From Nostoc carneum NIES-2107 (lineage in GTDB: Bacteria; Cyanobacteriota; Cyanobacteriia; Cyanobacteriales; Nostocaceae), in contig AP018182.1 in NCBI GenBank assembly GCA_002368155.1, positions 124,001-188,000 on the forward strand: DNA of 64,000 nucleotides, read 5' to 3'. The first letter of the stretch is position 1. Every line of letters begins with the position of its first letter. Shown here piece after piece: positions 9,680 to 59,879 of this stretch. The notes under the pieces were generated by a model. That model had not been told where the DNA came from, searched no databases, and worked only from the letters and a program-made list of their open reading frames with translations. Made by a program: the position numbers and the translations under genes.

Positions 9680-10020
9680 TGTCGGTAAAGGCAATTTTTT
9701 GGTTCGTACTGCTGGTGTGGATTGCAGATATCTTGCAACCGGGGTATTTGCAGTTTTATAACTGGCGTAATGCTGTGGCGTTGGCACAAAAGCTTCAATT
9801 TTTATCGCCGACTGCTGTTTCTACTGCTGCACCTAGCGTGAATATATCTTCTAATTCTGTCTCTACGCGCTATTCCTCTAAAGTTAAGGAATCTGCAACA
9901 TCCGGAGATGGCCTAAATTCTCCTGATTGCCGTGTAGCTCAGAATGATTTTGAGGAAGTATTGAGTACTGCAAAGATTGGTTGTTGGCAGGTTTATCCTG
10001 CTAATGCAAAAAGGCGTTGA
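9679..10020 (+). CDS. Small membrane-anchored protein
   Basis: 113 residues starting at the ATG that overlaps the previous stop. An N-terminal hydrophobic helix (AIFWFVLLVWIADILQ) is followed by a Ser/Thr-rich linker and a short C-terminal part with two Cys (SPDCRV and IGCWQV) that could pair outside the membrane. It ends five bases before the peptidase start. Function unknown. Confidence 0.52.
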   Translation: MSVKAIFWFVLLVWIADILQPGYLQFYNWRNAVALAQKLQFLSPTAVSTAAPSVNISSNSVSTRYSSKVKESATSGDGLNSPDCRVAQNDFEEVLSTAKIGCWQVYPANAKRR

Positions 10021-10024
10021 GACA

Positions 10025-10675: not shown

Positions 10676-10701
10676 AAGTTATTTAGCTATTGGCAAGAGC
10701 A

Positions 10702-11529: not shown

Positions 11530-11538
11530 AACTTAGTA

Positions 11539-24570: not shown

Positions 24571-24886
24571 AGATTATTTCCGATCAAAATATCATAATGC
24601 CTTTTTTGAAAGTCAAGTTACTTTAAACGACATAAAATTTATGACTAATTTACATATCAACAAATGTTGGTTTAATGTGGAATTTTGTTGCTTGGCTTTT
24701 TGAACGAAAGGTTACATACTCAAAGTAGTTTATTCAAAATAAATTAGGAAAACTTTGTTGAGCAATATAGTTGCTAATTTCTTTATTTCATTAATTTAAT
24801 CTATTGATTTTGTGTTTACAAATTTAAAATTTTAGATTGACATTAATCTAATACAACAAAGTTTATTTACTTTGCAAAAAAATATT
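24571..24886. other. AT-rich intergenic region before the ParA pair
   Basis: Spacer of 316 bases, very AT-rich, presumed to carry the divergent promoters of the Rpn gene and the ParA-like genes. No hairpin or ORF worth naming seen. Confidence 0.4.
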
Positions 24887-25795
24887 ATGCCTCAAAAAAA
24901 TAAAGAACAACCAGCCATGTCAAATAATACTTCCTCCAATACTAATAGTAAGCCTCAAAAGCGGCTGATAATTATAACAGGTGATAAAGGTGGCGTAGGT
25001 AAAAGTACCTTTGCAAGAGCAATATTTCAACTTTACATTAATAAAAATTTACCCTGTATTGCTTATGAAGCTGACTTAAGGAATCCTCAGATAGAAAGAT
25101 ATTTTCAAAAAGATTACCGTCCTATAATACGTTATATTGATATTTTTCATAGAGGTGGTGCTGACGATTTATTAATTAATCTAGATGAGAGTGATTGTCC
25201 TATCACATTATTAGACTTACCTGCACAATCTGGAGGTTTCTTTGAAAGTTATGTCAAAGAGTTTGCATTTTTTGAAGTTCTGAAAACTGAAATTAATTGT
25301 CGAGTGACAATGGTTTCAGTGATTAGTAGAGTTCTTGATTCTATAAATGTTTTAGAAAAACTCCGTGAACTTTGTAAAGACCAAGTAGATTATATTGTTG
25401 TCAAAAATCTCTTTCATGGTGAAGAAGAAAAGTTTGAGCGATATAATGACTCTTCCCTACGTCAGAATATGCTTGCAGAAGGTCTAATAGAACTTGTAAT
25501 GCCAGATTTATTCTACAAGTCTTATGACTTTATTGACCGCCATGCTTTAACCTTTAATGAAGGTCAGACTCATAGAGAGACAAATATTGTAATTAAGTCA
25601 AGAATTAAATCTTGGCTTGCTGAGTTTGAAACGCAAATTAAGCCAGCATTTAATTTATTGGGTTTTGATATACAACCAGATGACTGTTACTACCCAGCAG
25701 TTGTGGAAAAATCTAAAGAGCTTAGAGAAAACGAAGAAAAAGAAAAAGCTAAAAACCAAGATGCAAATTTACCATCTGAAGATATAGCTGCTTAA
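24887..25795 (+). CDS. ParA-like deviant Walker ATPase
   Basis: About 302 residues from ATG 24887; an in-frame TTG at 24872 and ATG at 24917 are alternatives. Deviant Walker A KGGVGKST at residues 34-41, as in ParA/MinD/Soj. A switch-like strand ITLLDLPAQSGG follows, where D-L-P-A replaces the usual DxPP. The C-terminal 40 residues are charged. Probably the partition ATPase, or a related P-loop ATPase, of this replicon. Followed 22 bases later by a second, related ATPase. Confidence 0.75.
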   Translation: MPQKNKEQPAMSNNTSSNTNSKPQKRLIIITGDKGGVGKSTFARAIFQLYINKNLPCIAYEADLRNPQIERYFQKDYRPIIRYIDIFHRGGADDLLINLDESDCPITLLDLPAQSGGFFESYVKEFAFFEVLKTEINCRVTMVSVISRVLDSINVLEKLRELCKDQVDYIVVKNLFHGEEEKFERYNDSSLRQNMLAEGLIELVMPDLFYKSYDFIDRHALTFNEGQTHRETNIVIKSRIKSWLAEFETQIKPAFNLLGFDIQPDDCYYPAVVEKSKELRENEEKEKAKNQDANLPSEDIAA

Positions 25796-26679: not shown

Positions 26680-27300
26680 ATGACCAATATTGCAAAAGTT
26701 GTTGAAAAAGTAATTGCAGAATATTCTGAAGAAAAGAAAGCAGAGGTCACTGATTGGATACTTAAATTGGGTGTTCGACCTGATGACCCCTTGTTTAACC
26801 TATACGCGGAACTAGGTACAACCCAATTTGCGTTGCAGCAGCTACCCGGTAGGCTTGACTCGCTTGTGGTGGGTTGGACTGACATGGTGGACGATAAGCT
26901 TAATAGTGCTTCTAAGGTGGCAATACAGCAACAAAAAAGTGCGATCGCCCAAGCCGCTAAGGATTTAATTAATATGACTAAGCAAGCTGGCGGGGCGTTG
27001 CCTCTGTTGGGTGTAAGTAATTGGCGATTGGCACAAGTAGCGGGAGTGTTGGGTTTTGTACTGGCTTTGGGATCTGTAATTGGTGTTTTTACATACAAAA
27101 CTATTGCTGGAAGTGTAACTTTTCAACAGGCGGCTTCTGGAACTGCTATTTTACAACCCGAAGATAAAAAGCTTCTGGATTGGGCTAAATCCAATGAAGG
27201 TAAGGTAGCACGTAGTATTTATGTTAGAAACGCTGCCATTATCAAAACTTGCCGCCAGCAGAAGAAGTATTCAGGCGGCTGCATAATTGCAGTTGATTAA
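26680..27300 (+). CDS. DUF6753-like plasmid protein with C-proximal membrane helix
   Basis: 206 residues, ATG 26680. The N-terminal 60 residues (VEKVIAEYSEEKKAEVTDWI, then LGVRPDDPLFNLYAELGTTQ) match what I recall of DUF6753, a family seen on cyanobacterial plasmids close to ParA genes. One membrane helix lies near residues 125-145 (QVAGVLGFVLALGSVIGVF), and a short C-terminal domain follows with two Cys. It could tether the ParA-like machinery to the membrane; that is inference. Confidence 0.58.
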   Translation: MTNIAKVVEKVIAEYSEEKKAEVTDWILKLGVRPDDPLFNLYAELGTTQFALQQLPGRLDSLVVGWTDMVDDKLNSASKVAIQQQKSAIAQAAKDLINMTKQAGGALPLLGVSNWRLAQVAGVLGFVLALGSVIGVFTYKTIAGSVTFQQAASGTAILQPEDKKLLDWAKSNEGKVARSIYVRNAAIIKTCRQQKKYSGGCIIAVD

Positions 27301-27304
27301 TTTT

Positions 27305-28093
27305 CTAGGCAACCCAGCCTTTGTATCCCTTATTACTTGTTTTAACTGTATCTTTTTGACTATTTTGGTTGGTTTTGACTCTTGTGTGGGTTGCTTGAGT
27401 AACTTCTTCTTCGATTTTCATGTCTGCAAAGCTGAGGATTCCCAGGCGGATAGCTTCACGGATAGCGTTTAATCTATCTTTGACTCCTAACTTGATAAAT
27501 GAATTATGTAAATATGACCTGACTGTACCTTCGGAAACATACATGACATTAGCAATTTCATTATTTTTCATGCCACCAGCCGCTAATTTGAGAACTGTAA
27601 TTTCTTTATTAGAGAAATCACTTAACAAATCTAGTGAATTTTTATCGGCTGTGTCATTTGACCTAAGATTATCAATCAAAATACGATTAATAGTTGGGTC
27701 AATCCATGATTCATTATTGTATGCAGCCATTACTGCTTCAATGAATCTTTCTCCTACTTCTTCTCTGGCATTATTTTTACAGTAGTAGCAGTCTGCGCCA
27801 TTACTAATTGCTGCGTTAATGGTATCTCGACTGCTATTTGCAGTCATAACTACTATTTTAATTGACGTGTGTTTGCATTTAATTAAACTTATGACCTCAG
27901 TGCCATTGATATCAGGTAAATCAATATTTATCACCACGATATCTGGCTTTTGTTGGTCAACAGTTTCTATTCCTTCCTTTCCGGTTTTAGCAAGGCCACA
28001 TACCTGGATTTTACCAGTTTCAGATAATATTGTCGCCGCACCAAACCTAGATATGTTCTCATTTTCAATGATGACAACATTAATAGGTTTCAT
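27305..28093 (-). CDS. NarL-type response regulator lacking the phospho-acceptor Asp
   Basis: 262 residues, ATG 28093. The receiver domain (1-125) is followed by a LuxR-type HTH (LAAGGMKNNEIANVMYVSEG, then TVRSYLHNSFIKLGVKDR) and a polar 45-residue tail. In the strand that normally reads hh-D-h, the sequence is PDIVVINIDLPD, so Asn56 stands where the phosphorylated Asp is expected. The acidic pocket (usually DD) is EN at 10-11. The Thr (VMTAN) and Lys (YYCKN) remain. It is therefore probably an atypical, phosphorylation-independent regulator. No kinase gene nearby. It converges on the DUF6753-like gene with four bases between stops. Confidence 0.8.
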   Translation of the reverse strand: MKPINVVIIENENISRFGAATILSETGKIQVCGLAKTGKEGIETVDQQKPDIVVINIDLPDINGTEVISLIKCKHTSIKIVVMTANSSRDTINAAISNGADCYYCKNNAREEVGERFIEAVMAAYNNESWIDPTINRILIDNLRSNDTADKNSLDLLSDFSNKEITVLKLAAGGMKNNEIANVMYVSEGTVRSYLHNSFIKLGVKDRLNAIREAIRLGILSFADMKIEEEVTQATHTRVKTNQNSQKDTVKTSNKGYKGWVA

Positions 28094-28596: not shown

Positions 28597-29367
28597 TTAA
28601 TCTATCTCTTGAACAGCATCCTGGTTTTTGAATTGTTGTTGGTTCTGTTCGCGGCGTGCTTGTTGCTCATCGAACAGAGCCTTAAACCGTTCAAATTCAT
28701 TATGGGTAAGGTTATTGATGATGATAGAGTAATTCTCTGAGCTATTATTACGAGATGCTAGGAGTGCTTCTTGGCTTGCTTCTGAATCAGGCGAATTTCT
28801 ATCAAGGCTAAGAGTTTGTGAATCTTCTTCTAATTTTAGGCTTGCAGTATATGCCTCGCCTTTACAAAGGATACTTTGTGTCTCTTTGTCTGGTTTTCCA
28901 AATAGATTTAAGCGGTCTAAAATTACAGGTATAACAAATTGTTGAATTTGAAAATTAGCGATAATAGATTGTACTTTATCGTGTTGACTATCTTCTACTA
29001 AGTTGCCATTATTGTCGTCATTTTTATTTGTAAAGTTTTTTAGAACGTCTGGTTCAATTGTATTGTCTTTAGACTGGTTTACTTCAGGTTGTAAAGATGA
29101 CTCTGGACTAGCTGGATTAATAAAATTGACAGTTTCAATTTCTGTCGAATTTACTTTTACTTCCTCTTGTGCTATTTCACTGATTCTATTCATTTCTGAA
29201 TTTAACTTTAACACAGCCTCTTGTCGTTCCTCAGCAGTTGGAGGATTTTTTGCATATTCTTCAAATTTCTCATCAGGTATATTAAGCTGTGCGATTAATT
29301 CTCTGAGGAGACAAGCTTGCATTGCTGGCGTTAAACCTTCTACTGGAAACTCGATTAGTTCTTTCAT
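28597..29367 (-). CDS. Partner protein of the giant RNAP-like protein, unknown
   Basis: 256 residues, ATG 29367 after AGGTAA, only seven bases downstream of the giant gene's stop, so translated from the same message. The N-terminal 60 residues are helical (LTPAMQACLLRELIAQLNIP, then AEERQEAVLKLNSEMNRIS). The middle is Asn/Ser/Glu-rich and disordered-looking. The C-terminus is a charged Gln-rich helix (FERFKALFDEQQARREQNQQ). No family recognised. Its fixed position suggests a subunit or adaptor. Confidence 0.65.
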   Translation of the reverse strand: MKELIEFPVEGLTPAMQACLLRELIAQLNIPDEKFEEYAKNPPTAEERQEAVLKLNSEMNRISEIAQEEVKVNSTEIETVNFINPASPESSLQPEVNQSKDNTIEPDVLKNFTNKNDDNNGNLVEDSQHDKVQSIIANFQIQQFVIPVILDRLNLFGKPDKETQSILCKGEAYTASLKLEEDSQTLSLDRNSPDSEASQEALLASRNNSSENYSIIINNLTHNEFERFKALFDEQQARREQNQQQFKNQDAVQEID

Positions 29368-29374
29368 AGTAAAA

Positions 29375-32300
29375 TTACCTTTCTACTAAATCTTTTTTGA
29401 CATCTTTGAGTGCATTATTGATGCGATCGCTCATAACTTGAAAATCTTGTAATGTTTCATCACTAATATTACTTACTTGAGTTTTTCCTTGTTTGACATA
29501 TAACAAGATATTATCTTTTTTATCCTTAACTAAATAAGTTTGGTTTTGAGTTTGAGTAGCAATCTGATATTTTTCTGTTTGGACTGTCATAATGCCATTA
29601 ATATCTTCTTGTCCAATCGTCTTAACTACACGTTGAGCAAGACTGGTCATCTCATTAACTTTTTCTAAATCTTTAATGTCTTGTTCCATTGCCTTAAAAG
29701 CATTCTCAAGACTAATATTTTCTTGAATGTATAAATTAGTTATCTCCTGAATTCTATTGAGATATGTGTCTGATTTACCGAGTTTTTCAGCCGCCATATA
29801 CCAGTCTTGGAGATTTTGCACTGTATTAGCTTTCATCCGCTCGATAATACTATCCATCGCTCCAACCTGCTGCATTTTGGGTTGAGCAGGTGATGCGAGT
29901 GCTTGGTGAATATTTGGTTGTTGGCTTTGTTGTGATGAAAAAATGTTCTTGTCTTTAGCAATTAATGAGTTATCTGATACTTGTGTATTGGTAGAAATAA
30001 TATCGCTACTAACTTTGGTGTTTTCTACAGGATTAAATACTGCATATCCTTGGGAAGTTTGTTCTACTTTGTACCCTTTTTCTTGAAGATAATTTTGAAC
30101 TAATTGGTCAGTTCCTTGTGCATTTCCGACTAGAAAAGAGCTTTTCACTGCTATTGCCTTATCAAGTAAGGGTTTATAGTGATTTTCAAATGTTTGGGCA
30201 ATTTGCTCGCTTGTTACTCCACGCCACGGGCCAGATCCGGACACCATAATCATGTCTTCTTTTGAGTAATTTCCTGTGTTGGTGCGTTCCCCCCATGCTT
30301 GCTCGTAATTTCGTGTGCTTGAAGGTGTACCGGGGGGTGCAGCTGATTTACCGATAAACTGGGTAGCTATTTGGGCCATCGCAATGTCTTTTTTCATGTG
30401 TTCAGCGACGGCGGCGTTTATAGGTTCGAGTTGGGAGACTGGATTTGTGGGCCACAGAGCAGTCTGTTGAGACTTGTCCTGCTGGGTTTGTACTGTAGTT
30501 TGTTGTGATTTTGCAATTACATATATATACGCTTCGCTAAGGGCTTGAATAAATGCCGATTCTTTACCCTTACCCTGCCACTGTTGATCCTGGGCATTAG
30601 TAATGCTTGTACAGTTCTCTAACCAATTGACTCCCCCTCGTTTGGCGATCGCTTCAGTTAGCCGGGGATGTTGTTCAAGTTTAGCCTGAAGCACTTCTAC
30701 CATTAGCTGGTATTTATCAACTGATGGATACAACTGCTTTTGATGATTAAATGCGTGTTCGGCGGATGCGTATGCTACCCCTTGAGGTTTTTGGACATGG
30801 GTTTCTACTCCATACTGCCCGGCGGGGGCTTCTGGATTATTTTTGACTGAAACTTGGTAATCGTTTTGCAGCTTGCCTTGTTCTTTGGCGAGTGCAGTGG
30901 CAAGGCTGAGTGCTACTCCCAGCCCATCTTTAGAGTCTGGGCTGATATTTACTGGAGTTGCAGCTTGTTTTTCGATGGTTAGGAACGGAACAATTTTGCC
31001 ATTGACATAATCTCCTAGTGGCTCCATGAATAAGCCATATACCTGACTCTTACTCGCTTGAGTTTGGGTAAGTTCTTTTGGTGAATGCTTCTCCCATCTC
31101 GCCCAGGCTTGCTGGTAACTTGGGTCTTGAATCATTTGGGTGGTAATTTTGTATTGTTTACCTGCCCGAAAAGCAACTTGCTCGCCGTTTTTACCAAGGG
31201 CGATCGCAATATCTCCCTCATTGATACCATAAGTTTTTTGGTAGTCTACACCTCTGGTAGTGTGTATCCTACCGTGTCCGCGCATAGCATCAATGGTTGT
31301 ATCAACTGGTAGTGCGGCAGCTTCGCCGTGCAGATGCAGCGAATAAACCATTGGTACTGGTTTGCCAGATATAGTCGCGTTGTCTGGAATCTGAGAATTA
31401 GCAGCGCGTGCCGCAGTAGAGTTCCCGATGGCGATAATTTCTTCGACAGTTGGTTGGTTTGAAGGGTGTGAGGGTATGTTTTGGGTGAATTCTCTGAGGC
31501 TGGTATAACTGCGCTCTACTTTAATTTCTCCCCCTGGTGTCCACTCGTTAGCTTTGATGGTGAGGTCGTTGTTGCTTTGGACTACCGCACGCGGAGGTTG
31601 GTTTGAGGTGAGGAAGTTTTCAAATTTTTGGCGAACGCTGTTTTCTCTGCCCAGGTCATTTTTAATTGACCAGATGTTGATAGACCATCTGCCAGCCTCA
31701 GTATTCAGTGCGGCGTGTTCGTTCTTGCAGTTGAAGCGGGTTACTGTACCCGACTCAAGTTTAAACTCTTGGTATGGTGCGTCCTGATTCTCTTCCCTAG
31801 TCCATGCCATTCGTTCCTTAGCAGCACGATAGCCCCAGTCAGAATTTCCGATATTAATGCTGCGGGCTTCCGTCGCGGCGTAGGAGTCATCGCGGTGGTA
31901 GTTAATCCCAGCACCAGGGTTCTCAGAATAAGTTACCAGCACAATATCAGCGTCAGGATATACTTGTTTGACAAGTTCCATCAAAGAGTCGTCCTGTACC
32001 CCTGGCTTGAAGTCTTTATCCTTCAAATCCCATTTTGCACCGATCCAGGCGACTTGTCTCAGTAATGCGTAGTTGGATTTGTCATTTTCAAGTATAGGTT
32101 TGAGGTGGGTTTCAAGATACGATCGCAATTGTTCTACTTTTTCCTCGCTTACCTTACCCAATATTTCGATAGCTTTAGTTGGATCGGCTTGACGCGAGTT
32201 GGGTAGTAATATTGGTTGATTCTTAGCTTCTAATTTTGTATTATTTACTACTTGTATCTCACCCGTGTTTTGATAGACTTGTGAAATTCCTGCAACTGTG

Positions 32301-35300
32301 GCATTAGTATTTAATTGAATATTAGTTATATTCTTTTCTGGTAAAGCTTTAGCAGGAACAATTGGTACTGGAGAATCTTCTTGATTGAGTTCTCTTGGAC
32401 GGTTAGGAAGTGCTTTTAGAGCTTTTTGGTAATCACTATTTTCTGGAATTTGGTTTAATTGTAAACCGCTACCTTCAGTTGCAATTTTTTGATTTAACTC
32501 TGCACTAAACTGTTCGTAGCGGTCAAAACCATCAACTTCACCAATATTAATAGCTTCTCCAAGTAAACTATTAAATTCTTTCTTTATTTCCTCACTAATT
32601 TCATTTTTATTAAAAATAAATGTAGCAGTGTTACTCTCAATAAAATAGTCGTTTTCAGTAGACTTTGATTCTAACCAAGTGGCTACAGCGATCGCGTCTT
32701 GTGCGGGAACTACTAATCCAAAAGCTTCTTTAGTTTCTAAGAGCGAACCATCCGAGGAAGTATATTGTTGATTTGGATTATAAAAATATACAGTTTGTTG
32801 AGGAATGATTGGAGTGGGTTGTGATGGTGTATCTGCACTTTTGATATGACCACCAGCACGGTTAATAAAGGTTTGTCTTAATTCGCTGCTGATAGTAGTT
32901 TCATCAAGTATGAATACAGTCATTCCTTTTTTGGCTTCTAACCTAGCTTGTGATACAGGAAGCTGTTCGTATGATACTCCTACTTTTTCGAGATACTTTT
33001 TGGTTTTTTCAGTTAGATTTTCATCAACTGCTAATCCTAAAAGCCCTACTAATTTTTGTTCTTTATCTTGGAACATTATTGTAGGGCGTTCGTTTATTTT
33101 ACCGAGTATTTGATTGCGTTTTTCTTGCTGCTCGGTTATGACAGGCTTTTCATTACTTATAAGCTGACTGCGTTTAACCCATTTGTCAGGATATTGTACT
33201 GTTTCTGGATTAATAATTATTTTACAGGTACTTTCATTACTGGTAATCTGTGCAGGGATAGTGGTTCGTTGTTGGTTTGGGCGAATAATACCCGTATCAA
33301 TTAATTTTTGTACAGTGCTAGTTTCTTTCCTTTGCCACTGTTTTTGTATATTTCCTTTATTTAAATCAGCTTCGAGACGTTCATTATGCTGACCAATAAT
33401 ACCGAGTGATTGGTCGCCAATTTTAGCAATATAAACGTGCTTTTTGTCAAATGCCCTAACTAAAGTTTCTTGAAATGCTTGGTTGTTAATCTCCTGTTTT
33501 TTGTACTTTGGATTCGTAATATTAATTCGTAACAGATTGTTCTGAGATGTTTCTGCTATAACATAGGCATTTTGTCCAGTGATAATAGTTTGAATTTTAA
33601 GATGTAACTTTTGCCCATTCCCAGGCTTTTCTGCTAGCCAGCCTTGGGCAATACCTTCTTTGATTGATTCTTTATCAATATTGCCTAGTTTTTCAGGTTT
33701 GTTACCATTTTGAAGATAAATAGTATAGTCTTCCCGGATCAGGTCAACCTTTTCGATTGTTAACATTACACGTTCATTATTAAACCTTTGAGAATTCCCA
33801 AACTTATTAACTTCGCCTACTTTGAAAGTTAGTTCTGGTAGTCCGGGTACTTTGGTTGTAACAGAGGTGGTATATACTTCACCTCTTTCAACACTGCCAA
33901 TAGCAATAGTACCAATTGGTAGCCGGGCGTTACTTTGTTCAATATTTCCAAATGTTTCGTAATTACCCTCTTGATTCTGGATTTCAATTACACTTTTTCC
34001 ATCTTCAGCTAGATTAAATTGAATACTCTGAGGTTGCTTTTCATTAAAAAACTCACTATTCCGGTCAAATCCAGTGATACTAAACTCGGTAAACTTGAGT
34101 GTATCTAACTGACTGATAATCTCTTGAGGAAAGGCAGCAAAGGCGAAATTAGAAACTTTATTTTGGCGATCGCTACTTTTATCATTACTATTCTCACGAG
34201 TAGTTGATACCGCCCAGGTGGCAGCTGCCATTGCTAGCTTTTGGTCTTCTGGAATCGAATTAGAAAATTCCTCTGCTATCTGGTAAGCTTTTTGGTAAAG
34301 AAGTTTAATTTGACCTTCGCTTAGTTCAGGTTGGAATGATATCTTGTTAGATTTTAATTCTTGTCCAACTGTAATTCCTATCTCTTCAAGTTTATTTTCT
34401 TGCTCCCTCGCTAGGGTTCCTAATTTTTTAAACTTGGGTTTACCATTCTCAGTTTCATCGTTAATTTGAGCATAAACTAAATATTTATGCGGACGGTTAT
34501 TGTTGCGCTTATCTTCGGGGATTTCTGTGAATTTTATTGTAATTGTATTAGCTTTCCAGATAAATTCATTATCATACTGTAGAAGATTAATTATACTTAC
34601 TTGATTACCATTAGCAAGGGTAATATTTGCAGACGGCCCTTTTTCAGTTTCTTTTTGTTTAGATAGCTCACTTGCTCGGTTGAATGATTTGTCGAATTCT
34701 TTTTTGATGAGGGTAGCTCTTAATCGCTGTTCGTGAGAAAATTCAACCCCTTTAAATAAAGCTTGAAATTGAACGATTTCACGCGATTCGAGGCGAGCTT
34801 TTTCAAAATACTGGTTGGTTTGAGCAATTAGTAACTCAACAGGTGAGTATCCCGTCGGTTGAATTGTGTTGTCAATATAGACATCTTTTTTCTTATCCTT
34901 AATATAGTTGACTTCACGGTGAAGAATCCGACTGTTGTTGCGAATAATTTCAATTTCAGGTTTTTTGGCACTCTTGAAAAGGTCAACTGCAATTTGATTT
35001 TGAAATGCTGCCTCGGCAATCATTTCACGGTACATTTGGGTATTAATATTCATCGCCACTAGTGTATTGGCGGGTTCTTGCCGAACAGTTTTGATGAACT
35101 CTTCCATGTAACTGCGATACTTGCTTGGAATCTCCTTCCCTTCAATACCCTTGGATTTTGCCCAGGCTTCTGTTTTGAATAAATCTTCGTAGTGTTTGGC
35201 TACCTGCTGCACGTACTCAATTGAGTCTTTCTCGCTACTAAAGTTTTTTAGAATCGTAATTTCTGACTCTAACGCCTCAATTGCGGTAAGGTGATTGTTG

Positions 35301-37120
35301 ATAACACCTACACTAATGCCATCGCTCATGTGGATGGCGATTTCCTCAAATTCTGGCTGACTGCCATCTTCTTGGTAAAAAGATTGTTTTTTAAGTTTGA
35401 CAGTTGGAGCGTAGGCGTTTTCAGGAAGGTTGCGCTCCTTTGCTTCGGTGGTGAGGTTGGGATACTTGCTTGCCCGCTCGAAGCCGATACAATCACCATC
35501 GTAGTCGCGTGCTTGACGCTCTTGTTCGGACTCTTGAGGGAGAATCTCTAATTCATAACCAACTGATTTTAGTTCTAAAATATACTGATTAAATTTGTTA
35601 GTAAACTCGATTTTATCCTTATTTTCGAGCTTATTAATATTTTGGTCTAAGTAATTTTCAATACCTTCTAACTGGATATTTTTTCCTTGAGCTTCTGGCA
35701 GGATAGATTTAATTTGCTCATTGAGGCGGTTGTAAATGCGATCGCTTGTTTCGTCCGAGACAGCGATCGCACCAGCGAGAGGTTGACCATCAGGCCCAAG
35801 GATATCTTCTACAATTGTGTTAGTTGAGACGCACAGACCATTTGAGTTGAGGAAAGGGGAGCGGAAGTTGAGAACTTCTTCGCCGTCTTGATAATGGGGT
35901 ATGGAAATTTCCTCATTTCGCAGGTCTTTGGAGGGAATGACCATTGCTCGCTCAAACGTTAACGTCTTGCCGATGGCGATTTCTTTCCACTCGTTTTGGA
36001 CGAACCGGGCGAGTTCGCGCTGTACTTTCTCAGTTTCGAGAAGTTGCCCCTCTCCTTGCAGGTCAGCTTTGATGAGTTTGTAAATAAACGAGTCAGTAGC
36101 AATGCGATCGCGCAAAGTTTCTAACTCTTCTGCTAATGTTGGATCTTCTGCTGCTTGTTCTTCTAGTGTGGTTGCTTGTTCTTCTAAAAAGGCTTTCCGT
36201 TTCTCGTACTTTTCGCAGTAAAGTTGTGCAAGTTGCCGAGGATCATCCTGTGCTTCTTTAAGCTTTTTGGCTTCAAGTTCTAGCTGTTCAGTAAAGTCTT
36301 TCAGTCCATTAGGGAATGAAGCGAGTAACTGCGATATAGCTGTCTTGCCGAGTTCAGACTGTGATTTTTCACCTAGCCAGATATTTTGTCGGTACAATCC
36401 AGGTTGAATTTGAGGCTTAGTCGGGCCATTAGGATTATCTTTATCAGTTCCCTTGAACGCAGATAAGGGAAGAATTAGATCAATTTTAATTAAGTTATTG
36501 GGGTCTTGATAATTGAGGATTTGCTCAAGGTTAGCAGGGCGTAGTGTACCTTTACCAAAGCGGTATTTATTGTCATCTCCGTCTCGATCAGTCCAACCGA
36601 AGCGGTGCTGAATTACTCGATATTTATCACCTTTTTGATGCTTGGTTAATTCGTGATACAGTTCTTTTGATATTTGTCCGTAACAGTCTCCTGTTAGCCG
36701 ATATGCTTGGTCATTACTGATAATGCCACCATTTTCACCATTATTATCATCAACTATTAAAATAGTTAACTCTTTATTGACAGCATTTCTACATGAACCA
36801 AGAAAGATAGACCCGTAAGCACCTCTATCTTTGTTATCAGGGCATAGTTGTCTAATTGTATCTAGACATTCTTCGGGGCCATATAACAACCGAGTTTTTG
36901 ATGATAATAATAATTTATGACCTTCAGGATGATTAGTTAATTGTTCCACGGTAGACTTTTCGTCCATATGCCCGAACGAAAAGTTTACCCCAGGAGAGAA
37001 ATGTTCTAGTAGAGTATTATGAAGTTCTTCTTTTAACAGCGAATCTGGATTATTTGTATTACCATCTGTATGAATCCATTGATTTAATCTAGTGTCAAAA
37101 TGTTTAGCTTGAATTGTCAT
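29375..37120 (-). CDS. Giant multidomain protein with single-chain RNA-polymerase-like core, AlkB-, NADAR- and SLOG-like regions
   Basis: 2581 residues, ATG 37120. Residues 1-560: GKGTLRP (Lys190), FRSPFLN (Arg420) and ARDYDGDCIGFE (Asp539, 541, 543) appear in the order of the polymerase features Lys-loop, R-x-P and metal-binding DxDGD of double-psi-barrel RNA polymerases (beta-prime, QDE-1, YonO, crAss-like). Residues about 560-1600 have no family I recognise. Residues about 1690-1820: AlkB-like 2OG-Fe(II) dioxygenase pattern, NYHRDD (His1742, Asp1744), NEHAA (His1802) and GRWSINIW (Arg1811). Around 2115-2200: NADAR-like (ASAEHAF with Glu2121, then WLENCTS and DQQWQGKG). Around 2290-2370: SLOG-like (VSGSGPWRGVT and VGNAQGTDQLV). 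The C-terminal 200 residues are helical. Likely cytoplasmic. The start codon lacks a clear ribosome-binding site. Domain calls come from motifs read by eye; the catalytic activity is unproven. Confidence 0.7.
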   Translation of the reverse strand: MTIQAKHFDTRLNQWIHTDGNTNNPDSLLKEELHNTLLEHFSPGVNFSFGHMDEKSTVEQLTNHPEGHKLLLSSKTRLLYGPEECLDTIRQLCPDNKDRGAYGSIFLGSCRNAVNKELTILIVDDNNGENGGIISNDQAYRLTGDCYGQISKELYHELTKHQKGDKYRVIQHRFGWTDRDGDDNKYRFGKGTLRPANLEQILNYQDPNNLIKIDLILPLSAFKGTDKDNPNGPTKPQIQPGLYRQNIWLGEKSQSELGKTAISQLLASFPNGLKDFTEQLELEAKKLKEAQDDPRQLAQLYCEKYEKRKAFLEEQATTLEEQAAEDPTLAEELETLRDRIATDSFIYKLIKADLQGEGQLLETEKVQRELARFVQNEWKEIAIGKTLTFERAMVIPSKDLRNEEISIPHYQDGEEVLNFRSPFLNSNGLCVSTNTIVEDILGPDGQPLAGAIAVSDETSDRIYNRLNEQIKSILPEAQGKNIQLEGIENYLDQNINKLENKDKIEFTNKFNQYILELKSVGYELEILPQESEQERQARDYDGDCIGFERASKYPNLTTEAKERNLPENAYAPTVKLKKQSFYQEDGSQPEFEEIAIHMSDGISVGVINNHLTAIEALESEITILKNFSSEKDSIEYVQQVAKHYEDLFKTEAWAKSKGIEGKEIPSKYRSYMEEFIKTVRQEPANTLVAMNINTQMYREMIAEAAFQNQIAVDLFKSAKKPEIEIIRNNSRILHREVNYIKDKKKDVYIDNTIQPTGYSPVELLIAQTNQYFEKARLESREIVQFQALFKGVEFSHEQRLRATLIKKEFDKSFNRASELSKQKETEKGPSANITLANGNQVSIINLLQYDNEFIWKANTITIKFTEIPEDKRNNNRPHKYLVYAQINDETENGKPKFKKLGTLAREQENKLEEIGITVGQELKSNKISFQPELSEGQIKLLYQKAYQIAEEFSNSIPEDQKLAMAAATWAVSTTRENSNDKSSDRQNKVSNFAFAAFPQEIISQLDTLKFTEFSITGFDRNSEFFNEKQPQSIQFNLAEDGKSVIEIQNQEGNYETFGNIEQSNARLPIGTIAIGSVERGEVYTTSVTTKVPGLPELTFKVGEVNKFGNSQRFNNERVMLTIEKVDLIREDYTIYLQNGNKPEKLGNIDKESIKEGIAQGWLAEKPGNGQKLHLKIQTIITGQNAYVIAETSQNNLLRINITNPKYKKQEINNQAFQETLVRAFDKKHVYIAKIGDQSLGIIGQHNERLEADLNKGNIQKQWQRKETSTVQKLIDTGIIRPNQQRTTIPAQITSNESTCKIIINPETVQYPDKWVKRSQLISNEKPVITEQQEKRNQILGKINERPTIMFQDKEQKLVGLLGLAVDENLTEKTKKYLEKVGVSYEQLPVSQARLEAKKGMTVFILDETTISSELRQTFINRAGGHIKSADTPSQPTPIIPQQTVYFYNPNQQYTSSDGSLLETKEAFGLVVPAQDAIAVATWLESKSTENDYFIESNTATFIFNKNEISEEIKKEFNSLLGEAINIGEVDGFDRYEQFSAELNQKIATEGSGLQLNQIPENSDYQKALKALPNRPRELNQEDSPVPIVPAKALPEKNITNIQLNTNATVAGISQVYQNTGEIQVVNNTKLEAKNQPILLPNSRQADPTKAIEILGKVSEEKVEQLRSYLETHLKPILENDKSNYALLRQVAWIGAKWDLKDKDFKPGVQDDSLMELVKQVYPDADIVLVTYSENPGAGINYHRDDSYAATEARSINIGNSDWGYRAAKERMAWTREENQDAPYQEFKLESGTVTRFNCKNEHAALNTEAGRWSINIWSIKNDLGRENSVRQKFENFLTSNQPPRAVVQSNNDLTIKANEWTPGGEIKVERSYTSLREFTQNIPSHPSNQPTVEEIIAIGNSTAARAANSQIPDNATISGKPVPMVYSLHLHGEAAALPVDTTIDAMRGHGRIHTTRGVDYQKTYGINEGDIAIALGKNGEQVAFRAGKQYKITTQMIQDPSYQQAWARWEKHSPKELTQTQASKSQVYGLFMEPLGDYVNGKIVPFLTIEKQAATPVNISPDSKDGLGVALSLATALAKEQGKLQNDYQVSVKNNPEAPAGQYGVETHVQKPQGVAYASAEHAFNHQKQLYPSVDKYQLMVEVLQAKLEQHPRLTEAIAKRGGVNWLENCTSITNAQDQQWQGKGKESAFIQALSEAYIYVIAKSQQTTVQTQQDKSQQTALWPTNPVSQLEPINAAVAEHMKKDIAMAQIATQFIGKSAAPPGTPSSTRNYEQAWGERTNTGNYSKEDMIMVSGSGPWRGVTSEQIAQTFENHYKPLLDKAIAVKSSFLVGNAQGTDQLVQNYLQEKGYKVEQTSQGYAVFNPVENTKVSSDIISTNTQVSDNSLIAKDKNIFSSQQSQQPNIHQALASPAQPKMQQVGAMDSIIERMKANTVQNLQDWYMAAEKLGKSDTYLNRIQEITNLYIQENISLENAFKAMEQDIKDLEKVNEMTSLAQRVVKTIGQEDINGIMTVQTEKYQIATQTQNQTYLVKDKKDNILLYVKQGKTQVSNISDETLQDFQVMSDRINNALKDVKKDLVER

Positions 37121-38165: not shown

Positions 38166-39671
38166 CTACTGCTCAATACCTGTTTGCGATCGCTGTTGAT
38201 TAATTAATGCTTGTTGGGTAAAGAAACGCAAACTTTCAATCTGCTCAATTTCGTTTGTGGTTAGTCGAGTTGGTATCTCTTCGTACCAGGTTCTCTGACT
38301 GTAGCAGGTTTGCATCACAGGAGTATTATCCCCATGACGGTAAACACTCAGAGTATTTCTATCTAAGCTGGCACTCAACTCCTGTCCTTTGATACGGAAG
38401 TTATTGGTAACAAGCATATAGTCAGTGATTATAGAAGGCAAATGTTTGAGAGTAGAAGGCAGAAGGTTAAGAGAAGGAGGAACAGGGGAAGATTGCTCTT
38501 CCAGGAGTTGTTTAGCAGTAAGACCATTTTCTTCTGAAATATCCTGTTGTGGGTACTGTTTTTGGGGATGTGGCTGAACTTTTTTCTTAGTGTTATTTGC
38601 TTTCAATGTGGGGTTGTCTTCCAATTTGGATTGTATTACTGGAATCTCACTTGGATAATTACTGTTTAGTGTATATGTACTAACAAGTGTTTTGGAGTTA
38701 CTATCGGTATCACCATTGCTATCACTTGCACTGCTGCTAGTAGTTTTATCACTATATAAGTAATTATTATTAATTAGTGTGTTGCAATTTATGCGGTTAA
38801 TTGCTCTGGCTTTAGCTTGTTGAATTACTTCTTTATCTTTATCTGGGTCGTACATGATTCCATATTCAGACCGCAGTTTGTTCCAGCTATAAGGTTTGTA
38901 TACTTGATAACCAGCAATTTTTACATCATTATGAATGTAGGTAAAGCCTAGTAGTTCTTCCCCCTGCATCTTAGGCAATACTCCAATGTTGTTTTCCTCC
39001 AGGCGTTCAATGAACGTAGAGACGGTGGGACTGTCCTTAATGGCTTCCCCTATTGCTTGGCGAATAATTTCCTTACTGGTTGGGGTTTTGTGCTTACTGT
39101 TGACTGCTCTAATGCTTTTTGATCGGTTGGGGCTGGTGAGTGTAATAATCCCGTACTCTTGCTCTAACTTAGAGGCCACAGCTTCATTTGTTGTCGGTGT
39201 TACTTCCAATCCTAGTTCCGCCGCTATGCGTCTAGTTGAGACTTGGGAGTTGAAATAATCATAGGAATCATTAACTAAGCTGCCATCTAACCGAATCCGG
39301 GAGGCGATTATATGCAGGTGTTCGTGGTTGCGATCCTGGTGGCGTACTGCAACGAATTGACTGGTAGCTCCTACAGATGATTCTTCCTTGGGCAAGTATC
39401 CCATATCCTTGAGATATTCTCTTGCTACATAACTGTACTGACTGTCTGATAAATGCTCGTGGTAGTTGGGACGATGTGCGATTGAGATGATGAGGTGAGC
39501 GCACTGCCGTTTAACTGCTTTGTTGGTGTACTTGATGGTGAGAAACTGCTGGTTAAATTCATCTGGCTTTGTTCCCATCATATTAGTATTGACAATCGCA
39601 GCATCATCTTTCCCCAAGACATACTTGAGCGTGTCGAGAAAATTGGGTTTTTTGTAGATGACGGGAATCAA
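38166..39671 (-). CDS. Relaxase (MobP/VirD2-like mobilisation nuclease)
   Basis: 501 residues. The N-terminus starts with a TTG at 39671 (MIPVIYKKPNFLDTLKYVLG); the next Met would remove the conserved first motif. Tyr17 is the candidate nicking residue. The metal triad motif III is RNHEHLHII with His116, His118 and His120. Residues 140-290 look like a conserved accessory domain; the remainder is Ser/Asn/Pro-rich linker and a short C-terminal domain. It nicks oriT and pilots the strand in conjugation. The MobC-like gene lies upstream in the same direction. It is flanked on both sides by the long palindromes. Confidence 0.88.
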   Translation of the reverse strand: MIPVIYKKPNFLDTLKYVLGKDDAAIVNTNMMGTKPDEFNQQFLTIKYTNKAVKRQCAHLIISIAHRPNYHEHLSDSQYSYVAREYLKDMGYLPKEESSVGATSQFVAVRHQDRNHEHLHIIASRIRLDGSLVNDSYDYFNSQVSTRRIAAELGLEVTPTTNEAVASKLEQEYGIITLTSPNRSKSIRAVNSKHKTPTSKEIIRQAIGEAIKDSPTVSTFIERLEENNIGVLPKMQGEELLGFTYIHNDVKIAGYQVYKPYSWNKLRSEYGIMYDPDKDKEVIQQAKARAINRINCNTLINNNYLYSDKTTSSSASDSNGDTDSNSKTLVSTYTLNSNYPSEIPVIQSKLEDNPTLKANNTKKKVQPHPQKQYPQQDISEENGLTAKQLLEEQSSPVPPSLNLLPSTLKHLPSIITDYMLVTNNFRIKGQELSASLDRNTLSVYRHGDNTPVMQTCYSQRTWYEEIPTRLTTNEIEQIESLRFFTQQALINQQRSQTGIEQ

Positions 39672-39916: not shown

Positions 39917-40312
39917 TTATTTTTCAACTTCTTGGTTGTGTAGAGGATTCCCAGCGTCTTGTTTAGAGCCTGCGAGCTCTATATTAAATGCAGCAGCAAT
40001 GGTTTTATCTACGAGTGCGATCGCAATTTCGACTTGGTTAATAATTTGCTGGTTGTTTGTTTCCTTGGCAAGGTGAGATAACATCATCAGTTCGCTTTTG
40101 AGGGTTCCTGCCGTAGCACGGATGGTTATTACATCTGCGGGTGGTTTTACTGCTAGCACTCGTCTTAACCCACATGAACGTAGATACTCAGATGCCGTTT
40201 GTCCTGTGGCGGTGGCTTTCTCCTCAATGGCGTTTTTTTCTTCCTCAAAGACGTATACCTTAACTAATTTGGTTCGTTTAGCAGGCCTATTTACCATACC
40301 TTGTTTAATCAT
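39917..40312 (-). CDS. MobC-like relaxosome accessory protein
   Basis: About 131 residues from ATG 40312; the upstream extension to 40402 looks non-coding. An N-terminal basic strand (KRTKLVKVYVFEEEKNAIEE) and KATATGQTASEYLRSCGLRR give the ribbon-helix-helix pattern of MobC/MbeC proteins. A helical C-terminal half follows (KSELMMLSHLAKETNN). These proteins bind oriT and help the relaxase to melt the nick site. Positioned directly upstream of the relaxase gene, as usual. Confidence 0.82.
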   Translation of the reverse strand: MIKQGMVNRPAKRTKLVKVYVFEEEKNAIEEKATATGQTASEYLRSCGLRRVLAVKPPADVITIRATAGTLKSELMMLSHLAKETNNQQIINQVEIAIALVDKTIAAAFNIELAGSKQDAGNPLHNQEVEK

Positions 40313-40827
40313 TGGACTGGGGGAAGTATGACGCTTTTCTGTAATGTGCCAAGGAACTCGTCGGACAACCAAAAATTCCACTTTTCTCACGCACACTACC
40401 ATTGCGGATAATATAGCCGTTATCCTTGGTATAACTGAAATTGCGGTTATATGACTTTAGTAATAGTACTGCAACTGCTGTGAAATCGCTTTTACAAGCA
40501 TTATGCTGTTAGGGTCGAACTATGCGATCGCAGATTATTGTCTATGTAAAAATACTTACTTTATTATAAAATCTATTCTTTATTTCCTGTCCTTGACTAG
40601 AGAACGAGAATATTGTGTTTTTTGTTAAAAATAATACATATCTTATTTATCGTAGAATGCTGAGAGCAGTGCAGTAATCGTGCCATTGTAGTTAGGAAAA
40701 AGATTATCAGTCAATAATCAAGTGTGCGATCGTGAAATTTCATCTATGTATATAAACTTAAATTAATGTATAAAATAAGCTGTAAGCGATTTGTTTAAAA
40801 TTGAGCGTATGTTAACTGGATTAGACT

Positions 40828-41970: not shown

Positions 41971-42192
41971 GGAAACTGTATCCAGCGATCTCATTTGTAG
42001 ATTGTCCATCCTATAAATTTGGGTATCAAGGTGTGAGGTCATCGTCTGCGCTGCAAAAAAATGGATGATAATTGTAAAATTTTTTCTAAGACAGGGTAAT
42101 ACTGCTATAAAGTAAGCCTTTTTCCATACCGAGTTAATACTTATAAAGGTTAAATTGTAAGTAATAGCAGAGATGAATTGAAACCTTTATAT

Positions 42193-43437
42193 ATGCCCAA
42201 AACTAAGGAGAAATCAGATTTAAAAAAGATAGTAATTACGATTGACATGGGTGCAAGTAAAACCAAGGCTATCGTTCAGGAGTATCCAGAAGGAAAGCCT
42301 GTTGTATTACTTTTAGACTCAGAAATAGCGGATGTTGCTAAAGCCTCAGTTGAAAGCGTCCAACCTGAAGGTAGTCCTGAATCTCGTGCTTGGGTAGGGA
42401 TAGGCGATGAGTATTTCGCCTTGGGAGAACTTGCTCGTCGTCGGTTTGGGGGTATATCGCAACTGAGGGAGTTAAAATACGAACTAGCACTTCCCAAAAT
42501 TTGCGGTGCATTTTGGCTGGCTAAGGAGAAGTTGAACCTGGCTAATGATGTTGCAGCTTACTTGAGTGTCCTGCTGCCGCCGGGTGAAGTGCAAGATAAG
42601 GAACAGTTACAAATTCGATTGAAGGATGTGTTTCGGGGGTTTGATACACCAGCAGGTAAGATGCGGGTGAAAATGCTTCGTTATGATGCAGCTTCTGAAG
42701 GTAGTGGAATATTTTTCCACCGTAGGCGAACGCTTGGCGATCGTGTACCTGTTTCGATGTACGTAATGCTTGGTTATCGCAATGCGAGTATTTTCACCTT
42801 TCGGAGTGGTTCGATTGGCGCAGGAATAACCAGCAATTTTGGTATGTCTTGGTTAGTAAATAATTTGATTTCCAAAACATCGGGACTAAGCCCTGATAAT
42901 TCCAATATTATTGAGGTTCTGATAGAAGCTGGAGCCAGTTGTGACCCCAAGGTGATGCAAAAACTCTCCCGCAAGCGCAAAGGTGATGAGATTCAACTTG
43001 ATGGAGAGTCGATGTCCAAAGCTTTATTACTTGCTAGAGACGAATATTGGCGTGCGATCGCTAGGTGGTTGCGCTCAAAGATGGATGAGGATATTGAAGA
43101 ACTGGTATTTTGCGGAGGAACTGCGGATTACATTCGTCCTGAAATAGATGCTTACTTCCAGAAAGAGGGGATTAAAGTATCCTGGCACGGTAATATTTTC
43201 ATACCTGATAAAATATCTTTTGGTATGGGCAATCGGATAGCAGATGTCTGGGCTTTCCACCAGCACATGATTATTCAGTTTGATAAGTTGACTGGTTATA
43301 TACGCTCTGAGGTTGTACCGCTAACTAAATCTGTTGAAGCTAATACAAATAATACAGGTGAAGAAGTCAAACATAAGTATAACTTTACGCCTTGTGAGCG
43401 ACCAAGCACCTTTATTGCTGTGAACGAGAATGTTTGA
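42193..43437 (+). CDS. parM: ParM/StbA-type plasmid-segregation actin
   Basis: 414 residues from ATG 42193 (an upstream in-frame TTG at 42178 is less likely). Actin-fold motifs: phosphate-1 ITIDMGASKTKAIV with Asp18, a phosphate-2-like SGSIGAG region and the adenosine motif VFCGGTADYI near the end, followed by SFGMGNRIADVWAF. ParM filaments push plasmid copies apart when ParR-parC complexes cap their ends. The repeats and the putative parR lie immediately upstream. The gene is followed by a bidirectional terminator. Confidence 0.82.
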   Translation: MPKTKEKSDLKKIVITIDMGASKTKAIVQEYPEGKPVVLLLDSEIADVAKASVESVQPEGSPESRAWVGIGDEYFALGELARRRFGGISQLRELKYELALPKICGAFWLAKEKLNLANDVAAYLSVLLPPGEVQDKEQLQIRLKDVFRGFDTPAGKMRVKMLRYDAASEGSGIFFHRRRTLGDRVPVSMYVMLGYRNASIFTFRSGSIGAGITSNFGMSWLVNNLISKTSGLSPDNSNIIEVLIEAGASCDPKVMQKLSRKRKGDEIQLDGESMSKALLLARDEYWRAIARWLRSKMDEDIEELVFCGGTADYIRPEIDAYFQKEGIKVSWHGNIFIPDKISFGMGNRIADVWAFHQHMIIQFDKLTGYIRSEVVPLTKSVEANTNNTGEEVKHKYNFTPCERPSTFIAVNENV

Positions 43438-51891: not shown

Positions 51892-54153
51892 CTATGCGAG
51901 TGTTTTAGGTTGGAAGTTACGTAACCGCAGCGCATTAGTGACTACAGAAACCGAGCTAAAGGCCATTGCTGCACCGGCGATAATAGGGTTCAGTAACCAA
52001 CCAAAGATGGGGAAAAGAATCCCGGCGGCGATGAGAATACCCGCAACGTTGTAAATGAAAGCGAAGAATAGATTTTGGCGAATGTTGCGAATTGTGGCGC
52101 GGCTGAGTTGAATTGCTGTAACTATGCCTTGCAAATCACCAGAAATCAGGGTGATGTCACTAGCGGCGATCGCTACATCTGTACCAGTGCCAATTGCAAT
52201 TCCCACATCGGCTTGAGCTAAAGCTGGTGCATCATTGATACCATCACCAACCATCGCGACAATTTTGCCTTCTGCTTGTAATGCTTGTACTGTCGTGGCT
52301 TTTTGGTCGGGGCGGACTTCTGCTAAGACTCTTTTAATACCAACCTCACGGGCAATACTTTCTGCGGTGCGACGGTTATCACCTGTGAGCATCACAACTT
52401 CTAAACCGAGTTTTTGCAATGCTTTGACCGCTTGGGTGGAAGTGGGTTTAATGGCATCAGCAATCCCCATCACTCCTTTGATTTGGCCGTCAACTGCTAA
52501 CCACACGGCTGTTTTACCCAGGTATTCTAAGCGTTCTTTATCTTGTTGCAAAGCTTGAGTGTCAATACCCAATTCTTCCAGCCAGCGTTGTGTACCAATT
52601 TGCACAAGACGGTTAGAAACTATCCCTTGGACACCACTACCTGCCACGGCTTCAAAATCTCTAACATCTGCTAAGGTTACTTCCTGAGATTGGGCGTATC
52701 TGACAACTGCTTCTGCCAAGGGGTGTTCAGAATTGCGTTCTACCGAGGCGGCTAGTTGTATCAGCTTAATTTCGTTACCGTTGAGCGTACCGTTAACTGT
52801 GACAAAATCTGTAACTGTTGGTTTACCTTGGGTAATCGTGCCAGTTTTGTCTAACACAATTGTTTGAATTTGGTGTGCCAGTTCTAAGCTTTCGGCTCCC
52901 TTAATTAAGATGCCGTTTTCTGCACCTTTACCCGTACCAACCATCACAGAGGTTGGTGTAGCTAAACCCAAGGCACAAGGACAAGCGATGATTAACACCC
53001 CAACTGTGGTAATCAACGCCAGGGTGACATTACCCATGATGTTGTACCAAATGATAAAGGTGAGGATAGCGATCGCAATTACCGCTGGGACAAACCACCC
53101 AGTAACTTGGTCTGCTAATCTTTGAATGGGGGCTTTTGAACCTTGAGCCTGCTGCACTAATTGGACAATCTGTGCCAGTACAGTATCCTTACCTACTCTT
53201 GTTGCCCGGAATTTAAAGCTACCAGTTTTGTTAATAGTGGCTCCAATGACTTCATCTCCTGGTTGCTTTTTGGTCGGTACACTTTCGCCAGTCACCATTG
53301 CTTCATCAACGGTAGATGTCCCCTCAACCACTTCCCCATCAACAGGAACTTTCTCTCCAGGGCGAACCAGCACTACATCGCCAATCTGTACCTGTTCAAT
53401 CGGTACATCTACTTCTCGTCCATTACGAATCAACCGTGCTGTTTTCGCTTGCAAACCAACTAGCTTACGGATAGCTTCTGAAGTTTGCCCTTTGGCGCGG
53501 TTTTCTAGCCACCGTCCCAAAAGAATTAAAGCAATAATTACAACTGCTGCTTCGTAATATACATCCGGCTTTAATCCTTGAGCCACAAAGAAACTGGGGA
53601 AAGCTGTGGCAAATAAAGAATAGGTATATGCTGCTCCTGTGCCTAGAGCAACTAGGGTATCCATTGTGGCAGCGTGACGCTTTAAAGCTTTCCAGGCATT
53701 TTTAAAGAAATCGGCACCGCACCAAAATAGTGCTGGAGTTGTCAGCACCATCTGTACCCAAGAATTATGCAACCATGTCGGAATGAAAGGTAAATTCAAT
53801 CCGAGCATCATGGGTAACGACCCAATTACAAGCACAGCACCAATCGCTCCAGCAACAATCACTTTTCGCAGTAGATAACGTGATTCTCGTAAACGTGCCG
53901 TTTTCTCAGCATCATCTTCTCCTGCCATCAGGTTTTGTTCTTGGAGTGGATAGGCAGAGTAACCTGCCCCGTCCACTGCATCCTGGATGGTTTGTACATC
54001 AGTGGTTCTAGGGTCATACTCAACTGTTGCTTGTTCCGCTCCAAAGTTCACACTACATTCATTTACACCTGGGACAGAACTGATTGCTTCTTCGATACTT
54101 TTTGCACAAGAGGCGCAACTCATGCCGCGCAGTTTCAGTGTGGCTGTTTCCAT
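51892..54153 (-). CDS. copA: Copper-translocating P1B-type ATPase
   Basis: 753 residues, ATG 54153. An N-terminal HMA domain GMSCASC (Cys13, Cys16), eight predicted membrane helices, TGES in the actuator domain, CPC at 391-393 in helix 6, DKTGT with Asp435, SEHPLAEA, and [13 protein letters not shown] and the single MxCxxC point to Cu(I) export. Lies in one direction with the chaperone gene upstream and the 26-residue and cupredoxin genes downstream. No own MerR operator is seen in the 218-base gap to the chaperone, so it is likely read through from the class B promoter at 54604. Confidence 0.95.
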
Positions 54154-59877: not shown

Positions 59878-59879
59878 AG

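Follow-up and report, generated by a model that had tools for sequence, protein, structure and literature searches.

A 64,000-nucleotide window of the cyanobacterium Nostoc carneum NIES-2107 (contig AP018182.1, positions 124,001 to 188,000) encodes a protein of 2581 residues that is almost certainly a single-chain RNA polymerase of the YonO/QDE-1 (two-barrel) superfamily, as judged from sequence comparison. Its N-terminal core has very probably retained polymerase activity. Comparison of relatives shows the C-terminal chain as a cassette region, whose modules are swapped between members and which usually ends in a conserved tail. In the close subfamily, the gene is part of the plasmid backbone and lies between relaxase and partition genes. 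Our best explanation, to which we assign a probability of about 0.43, is that of a plasmid RNA polymerase of 'polyvalent' architecture that would act at transfer or establishment.

The window corresponds to C3:124001-188000 of a four-contig, 9.36-Mb genome. Its positions 1-25000 are 96.4% identical, over 87% of their length, to plasmid C of Trichormus variabilis ATCC 29413, and the 2581-residue protein is 94.8% identical to its homologue on that plasmid (gene AVA_RS28855). The original prediction, made from the DNA letters, described here a 2581-codon open reading frame (ORF) with single-chain RNA polymerase signatures. We find the ORF at 29375-37120 on the minus strand, starting with ATG, and in it the three motifs GKGTLRP (Lys190), FRSPFLN (Arg420) and DYDGD (Asp539, Asp541 and Asp543), all at the residues given. 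The basic residues, R-x-P and DxDGD thus stand on one chain, in the order known from YonO-like polymerases.

Relationship to two-barrel RNA polymerases

The assignment to single-chain two-barrel-type polymerases, proposed at the outset from the motifs, is supported by the Pfam family PF05183, by phrog_4291 and by profile-profile alignment (hhalign) to YonO with a negative control. The hhalign target was a profile of eight YonO-type polymerases, and the control was the C-terminal half of the same family proteins. The whole family aligns across 507 columns with a probability of 96.4% (E 1.1e-9), and both R-x-P and DxDGD fall in register. Similar values are obtained with the window-type rows only (91.6%, E 8.4e-7) and with a branch found in Planktothrix-type loci (90.6%, E 1.3e-6); the control yields 0.1% (E 0.48). 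A third, compact branch (L084 type, 870-900 residues) aligns with the window type at 99.95% (E 1.2e-38).

PF05183, named for RNA-dependent RNA polymerases (RdRP), was searched in 386 genomes of the same phylum. It matched 10 of them at E <= 0.001, 8 above the curated cut-off, and in none of 14 control genomes. Seven of the eight places above the cut-off are members of the present family that its own profile had found independently; these matches are partial and cover positions of about 267-539 or 379-539 of the 582-position model. The eighth genome holds a YonO orthologue (L101) that shares 45% identity with the protein annotated as YonO in Bacillus phage Goe12. According to its description, YonO is a processive DNA-dependent RNA polymerase with an essential aspartate triad (PMC5467207). 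Because YonO is DNA-dependent and its orthologue L101 also matches PF05183, the name 'RdRP' is uninformative on the template. The L101 gene (G297 C87, 5005-7473) lies some 3 kb upstream of an ORF that looks terminase-like by eye.

Of 18 trimmed cores, two also matched PF05183, the better one at E 1.2e-6, and phrog_4291, 'RNA-dependent RNA polymerase', matched 2 of 8 members (best 1.4e-8). Another profile, phrog_34895, stands for a viral family of unknown function with 1093 positions; it matched 7 of 8 members, at best with 5.6e-70, and could probably be renamed as a single-chain RNA polymerase. No family of T7/N4-type RNA polymerases, Toprim primases or archaeo-eukaryotic primases (AEP) was detected in the window protein (Pfam, NCBIfam, PHROG) or in the scanned relatives.

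Several results speak against the polymerase assignment. Taken alone, the window protein matches no polymerase family in Pfam, NCBIfam, PHROGs or PDB sequences; it does not reach E 1 with PF05183, a profile that is silent in its own genome. Seven of nine full-length relatives have no PF05183 match, and the other two (L084 and L050) fall below the cut-off. The compact subfamily alone reaches only 28.9% (E 5.9e-4) with the YonO profile. The AlphaFold model of residues 1-1180, built from a shallow 27-row alignment without divergent relatives, has a predicted local distance difference test (pLDDT) score of 59.1 and a predicted template modelling (pTM) score of 0.35, with residues 380-440 and 527-609 below pLDDT 50; for residues 1595-2581, also with 27 rows, the values are 47.9 and 0.27. 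A Foldseek search of both low-confidence models against the PDB returned nothing at E <= 0.001. Being of poor quality and having no Foldseek match, the models neither support nor refute the fold. Sequence and profile searches of the PDB with the full protein and four family alignments gave nothing significant either. With an 18-row alignment, the catalytic-motif region picked up RNA polymerase IV subunit 1 at E 0.68, ranked behind unrelated proteins, and we did not count it.

Conservation of the putative active site

The family profile matches 115 ORFs, of which 109 cover more than 450 of its 678 positions; 49 are left below 90% identity. The three motifs are conserved among them well above chance level, although these rows were gathered and aligned with the profile of the family itself, which favours conserved members. 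In the putative first barrel, Q171 is present in 49/49 members and R173, K190 and K223 in 48/49 each; K190 and K223 may be the catalytic basic residues. Further on, conservation extends to R420 (42/49), P422 (49/49), N434 (47/47) and K578 (47/48), and to the aspartates of DxDGD: D539 and D541 in 47/48 members, D543 in 48/48. The D-x-x-K-like element at residues 709-718 presumably has a parallel in eukaryotic RdRPs. An 18-row alignment used here spans wide divergence, its eight most distant rows being 21-27% identical to the window protein and two more 32-34%.

Departures from this pattern are rare. In the member from a Leptolyngbya boryana plasmid (L049, 7938-10709), NFGGD replaces DxDGD with the loss of two aspartates, and this protein is possibly a dead polymerase. 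In L034, the first ORF stops ahead of the DxDGD motif. For residues 1-760, the ratio of non-synonymous to synonymous substitution rates (Ka/Ks) ranges from 0.07 to 0.16 in five pairs, which shows purifying selection on the gene. The modules at residues 1917-2050 and 2222-2372 have a ratio of 0.43-0.77 in the two closest pairs, which differ by few changes.

A modular C-terminus

We compared the modules of 16 members, the window protein included. Their recurring order is a core (residues 1-1150 of the window protein), a middle part (1150-1430), a region of cassettes swapped between relatives, and a tail (2397-2581). The order is not rigid, two cassettes being reversed in L038. Several unrelated domains are joined in one large chain: in relatives, the polymerase core is accompanied by a superfamily 1 (SF1) helicase in 4/16 members (Pfam AAA_19, 7.5e-23 and 5.5e-24), an RNase H-like domain in 2/16 (Pfam RVT_3, 8.6e-12 and 1.2e-16) and a cpYpsA-type SLOG domain in 6/16. 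The Pfam cpYpsA match reaches 8.6e-30 and occurs in 6/27 C-termini; NADAR (PF08719) occurs in 1/27, at E 0.048. The SLOG domain is never found together with the module at residues 2222-2372, which may be an alternative cassette to it.

The cassettes of the window protein itself have no significant Pfam match. Three likenesses proposed by eye were dropped: an AlkB-like oxygenase at residues 1634-1830 has no Pfam support, and the profile of this module missed an AlkB-annotated gene in L052; neither NADAR at 2050-2222 nor SLOG at 2222-2372 is supported by Pfam in the window protein.

Genomic neighbourhood

The gene stands in a recurrent setting (Table 1). Upstream and on the same strand lie genes for a NikA-like protein and a relaxase, with a ParM-like gene beyond the relaxase, whose homologue in ATCC 29413 is annotated ParM/StbA; downstream follow a LuxR-type regulator, a DUF6753 protein and a ParA-like ATPase. 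As predicted earlier, a 256-residue gene begins seven bases downstream on the same strand (28597-29367). Counts for close loci refer to 31 loci with 7 kb or more of upstream sequence and to 29 with 13.5 kb or more downstream. Given the close relationship of these loci, the counts are not independent. The relaxase, the partner and DUF6753 are also found beside members at 54-68% identity (L022, L030, L032 and L036). In the 32 distant loci, tblastn finds neither NikA nor the 256-residue partner. The claim that no polymerase subunit or sigma-factor gene lies nearby holds for the 20 other window ORFs scanned with Pfam, out of 63 ORFs of at least 100 residues; among those scanned is a neighbouring response regulator whose helix-turn-helix is of the LuxR type.

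Table 1. Features of the polymerase gene and its neighbourhood (window positions).
Feature	Position	Strand	Basis
2581-residue modular protein with N-terminal core of two-barrel RNA polymerase type	29375..37120	-	ORF; full-length relatives
Polymerase core, residues 1-760, aligned family-wide; conserved blocks about 65-435 and 525-720	34841..37120	-	Alignments; hhalign to YonO
Putative first barrel, residues 144-224: GDCxGxIS...QxR...K190GT...K223G, basic residues	36449..36691	-	Conservation; motif order as in YonO alignment
R420-S-P422	35855..35863	-	R 42/49, P 49/49; aligned with YonO LRSPHL
DYDGD, residues 539-543, putative metal-binding aspartates	35492..35506	-	Conservation; aligned with YonO DNDGD
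QIAVDLFKSA, residues 709-718, like the D-x-x-K element that follows the catalytic motif of YonO-type proteins (VIDYAKTL)	34967..34996	-	Alignments, by eye
Optional module, residues 1634-1830, 9/16 members	31631..32221	-	2-oxoglutarate-Fe(II) oxygenase-like by eye only; no Pfam match
Module, residues 1917-2050, 12/16 members, order varies	30971..31372	-	Comparison of members
Module, residues 2050-2222, 11/16 members, twice in 6	30455..30973	-	NADAR-like at best
Module, residues 2222-2372, 5/16 members	30005..30457	-	Comparison of members
C-terminal tail, residues 2397-2581, whole or partial in 12/16 members	29378..29932	-	Comparison of members
256-residue partner ORF, no known domain, 7 bases downstream	28597..29367	-	27/29 close loci; 0/32 distant loci by tblastn
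Relaxase (MobA/VirD2-like)	38166..39671	-	PF03432 E 9.7e-22; upstream on same strand in 24/31 close loci
NikA-like mobilisation protein	39917..40402	-	PF21983 E 5.5e-14; upstream on same strand in 22/31 close loci
LuxR-type response regulator, neighbour in close loci	27305..28093	-	Pfam scan
DUF6753 protein, conserved neighbour	26680..27300	+	PF20538 E 1.6e-28; 28/29 close, 5/8 intermediate loci
ParA-like ATPase, conserved neighbour	24872..25795	+	CbiA 2.5e-4, below Pfam cut-off; 27/29 close, 3/8 intermediate loci
ParM-like actin-type partition protein	42178..43437	+	ALP_N 0.0015, below cut-off; 4/8 intermediate loci

Distribution

With residues 1-721 as the query, tblastn matched 83 of 72,556 plasmid records at E <= 0.01, and among the 60 matches listed all are cyanobacterial. 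By mobility type, 38 of the 83 plasmids are conjugative, 15 mobilizable and 30 non-mobilizable. The same query found none of 50,697 phage records at E <= 1. The full protein matches nine Nodularia phage records, solely through residues 1641-1825, which belong to a C-terminal module; in the full-protein search of plasmids, four Variovorax records were counted. Scanning genome contigs yielded 38 loci, and a profile of 18 cores detected the family in 39 of 386 genomes of the phylum. The listed plasmid matches are almost always annotated 'hypothetical protein', apart from 'ribonuclease H' for two Gloeothece copies.

Among viral contigs, neither the window core nor two of the family profiles found a relative; a third profile found one compact relative, and no phage record matched the compact type at E <= 0.01. 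This viral-contig relative (L089, 3954-8679) has 903 residues and lies near an RNase HI-like ORF, recognized by eye, and an ORF clustering with an HU-type protein. It is possible that it represents a phage or prophage branch of the family. Compact members adjoin a conserved ORF of 440-560 residues and another conserved ORF, an HU-type protein in L104, each in 8/10 loci. In Planktothrix-type loci (L047, L050, L051 and others), a conserved ORF of 390-800 residues lies downstream of the polymerase gene in 7/11 cases, some cut by the end of the locus; three of these ORFs scanned with Pfam had no notable domain. The Nostoc genome itself carries a second family copy, about 30% identical, at C1:7975948-7981953 (L040-L042), in the form of ORFs of 851 and 519 residues some 3 kb apart. 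A coupling-protein family occurs about 16 kb from this copy.

Possible role on the plasmid

In the mechanism that we propose, the core would make RNA on plasmid DNA. The template would most likely be plasmid DNA that is single-stranded or has just arrived, at about the time of conjugative transfer or establishment, and the products would be complementary-strand primers and/or early transcripts. The attached modules might act on nucleic acid, by processing or protecting it, or against the defences of the host. An RNA polymerase would then fill the job done by Toprim or PrimPol primases in other conjugative elements. We favour this role on two grounds: relatives carry helicase and RNase H-like modules, and in Nostoc-type plasmids the gene is linked to a relaxase. 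A coupling-protein family of type IV secretion systems is also encoded on the contig of the window (C3:29816-30922, E 4.3e-18). More specifically, the donor could produce the polymerase and send it along with the transferred strand; in the recipient, it would then prime and/or transcribe the incoming single-stranded plasmid while its modules serve post-entry tasks; we consider this extended version doubtful.

A number of observations count against a role at transfer. No relaxase lies in the available flank of 7 of the 31 close loci (L001, L004, L009, L013, L017, L034 and L038). By tblastn at E <= 0.001, the window relaxase is found in none of 10 compact and 14 Planktothrix-type loci, of 11-21 kb each, and among the 8 intermediate loci only in L057, apart from a weak match that falls within the polymerase ORF of L045. 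Its absence from distant loci makes the transfer reading less likely, and a dedicated transcriptase or a replication enzyme more likely. A relaxase of another family could escape tblastn with the window relaxase; two intermediate members (L046 and L058) have annotated MobV relaxase genes at a distance of about 6-7 kb. DUF6753, ParA and ParM reach the intermediate loci (5, 3 and 4 of 8), a distribution that fits plasmid maintenance too. No match to the VirB4-type families PF03135 and PF19044 was obtained in this genome, and 30 of the 83 plasmids carrying the family are typed non-mobilizable. Finally, the fused RNase H apparently lacks its first catalytic Asp, as seen by eye, and for this reason we do not claim primer removal.

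The enzyme could instead be a plasmid-specific transcriptase, serving dedicated plasmid genes from promoters of its own as YonO does for the late genes of SPbeta, with no special tie to transfer or priming. The nearest characterised relative is indeed YonO, a DNA-dependent RNA polymerase that is described as processive and as transcribing the late genes of its phage (PMC5467207). A LuxR-type regulator adjoins the gene in close loci, and the non-mobilizable plasmids and the distant members without a relaxase by tblastn fit such a function; a plain transcriptase, however, would not be expected to carry the modules seen in relatives (helicase, RNase H-like, SLOG), and we hold this alternative to be somewhat unlikely. 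Vegetative replication offers another job, that of a primase or initiator used by large plasmids at every cell cycle and not at transfer. The gene stands beside those for the ParA-like ATPase (27/29) and DUF6753 (28/29) in close loci, DUF6753 remains in 5/8 intermediate loci, genes for DNA polymerase III subunits occur no more than 10 kb from two relatives, and SF1 helicase and RNase H-like modules would suit primer handling. Yet 347 of 386 genomes of the phylum are without the family at E <= 0.001, and several of the plasmid records carry a replicon type assigned by PLSDB; a replication role seems improbable to us.

Much further down stands a counter-defence or RNA-directed enzyme, which would copy RNA as eukaryotic RdRPs do, for instance to blunt RNA-targeting defences of the host or to signal through SLOG-type modules. 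It draws on sequence matches to a family named RdRP and on the SLOG domains of relatives, but the same family also matches the YonO orthologue L101, and YonO is DNA-dependent; we regard it as very unlikely. That the polymerase fold is catalytically dead, kept as a scaffold or nucleic-acid clamp, is hardly credible: the loss of two aspartates in L049 would agree with it, but the three aspartates are kept in 47/48, 47/48 and 48/48 members, and the gene evolves under purifying selection.

Comparison with known systems

YonO of SPbeta-type phages resembles the plasmid protein in being a single chain with the same order of DGxG, KG, R-S-P and DxDGD, and in its significant profile-profile match. It differs in size and setting: Goe12 YonO has 839 residues and is phage-borne, whereas the plasmid protein has 2581 residues and swappable C-terminal modules. 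Eukaryotic cell-type RdRPs (QDE-1, RDR; PF05183) are linked to the family by the seven members above the PF05183 cut-off, although these matches are partial and the window protein stays short of E 1. By its description, NCgl1702 is similar as a single-chain two-barrel enzyme outside the cellular core and on mobile elements.

Two other systems combine some of the same traits. In Thermus phage P23-45, the virion polymerase-tape-measure fusion gp96 is likewise a giant multidomain protein of a mobile element with an N-terminal two-barrel RNA polymerase; it is described as a virion protein, without a clamp and not on a plasmid (PMC10770324). Fungal cytoplasmic linear plasmids are described as encoding a two-barrel RNA polymerase in one chain (PMC7281927), but they are fungal elements and not bacterial. 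In overall architecture, there is a parallel with the polyvalent proteins of conjugative elements, giant multidomain proteins with mixed enzymatic modules, and in the close subfamily our gene lies beside a relaxase. In that survey, RNA polymerase modules are N4-like and limited to phages and prophages; the primases found in conjugative elements are of the Toprim or PrimPol kind (PMC5512222).

The system had been proposed as undescribed. This stands for the plasmid-borne modular form, as far as our literature search goes, but not for the enzyme type, as YonO-like proteins in cyanobacteria are already in print (PMC5467207). A full-text literature search, covering work outside subscription papers and older surveys, returned neither the plasmid family nor its modules or relaxase link; members of the family may be listed in earlier polymerase surveys. 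What is new is the plasmid setting and the modular C-terminus.

Single-chain two-barrel polymerases are kin to the RNA polymerases of cells and also to those of RNA interference. Among prokaryotes, the characterised examples considered here (YonO, P23-45, crAss-like) are phage-derived; with this family, such enzymes are also present on large plasmids of cyanobacteria, dozens of them. An active enzyme would provide a bacterial plasmid with an RNA polymerase of its own, a directly testable case, and could explain priming or first expression of plasmid DNA in cyanobacteria. A very large gene, nearly always annotated as hypothetical, thereby also receives a name.

Other features of the window

Three further regions were noted. 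On the minus strand, 2414-5656 encodes an ORF of 1080 residues, and the annotations of the matching ATCC 29413 stretch include the DISARM helicase DrmD. A heavy-metal P-type ATPase (HMA, E1-E2 ATPase) at 51892-54153 (minus strand) and a CusB/AcrB-type efflux pair at 58207-63005 (plus strand) are probably metal-resistance cargo. At 9977-13719 on the plus strand, an M23 peptidase accompanies an FtsK/SpoIIIE-type translocase; matching plasmid regions list a lysozyme and a terminase large subunit, hinting at a phage-like or transfer module.

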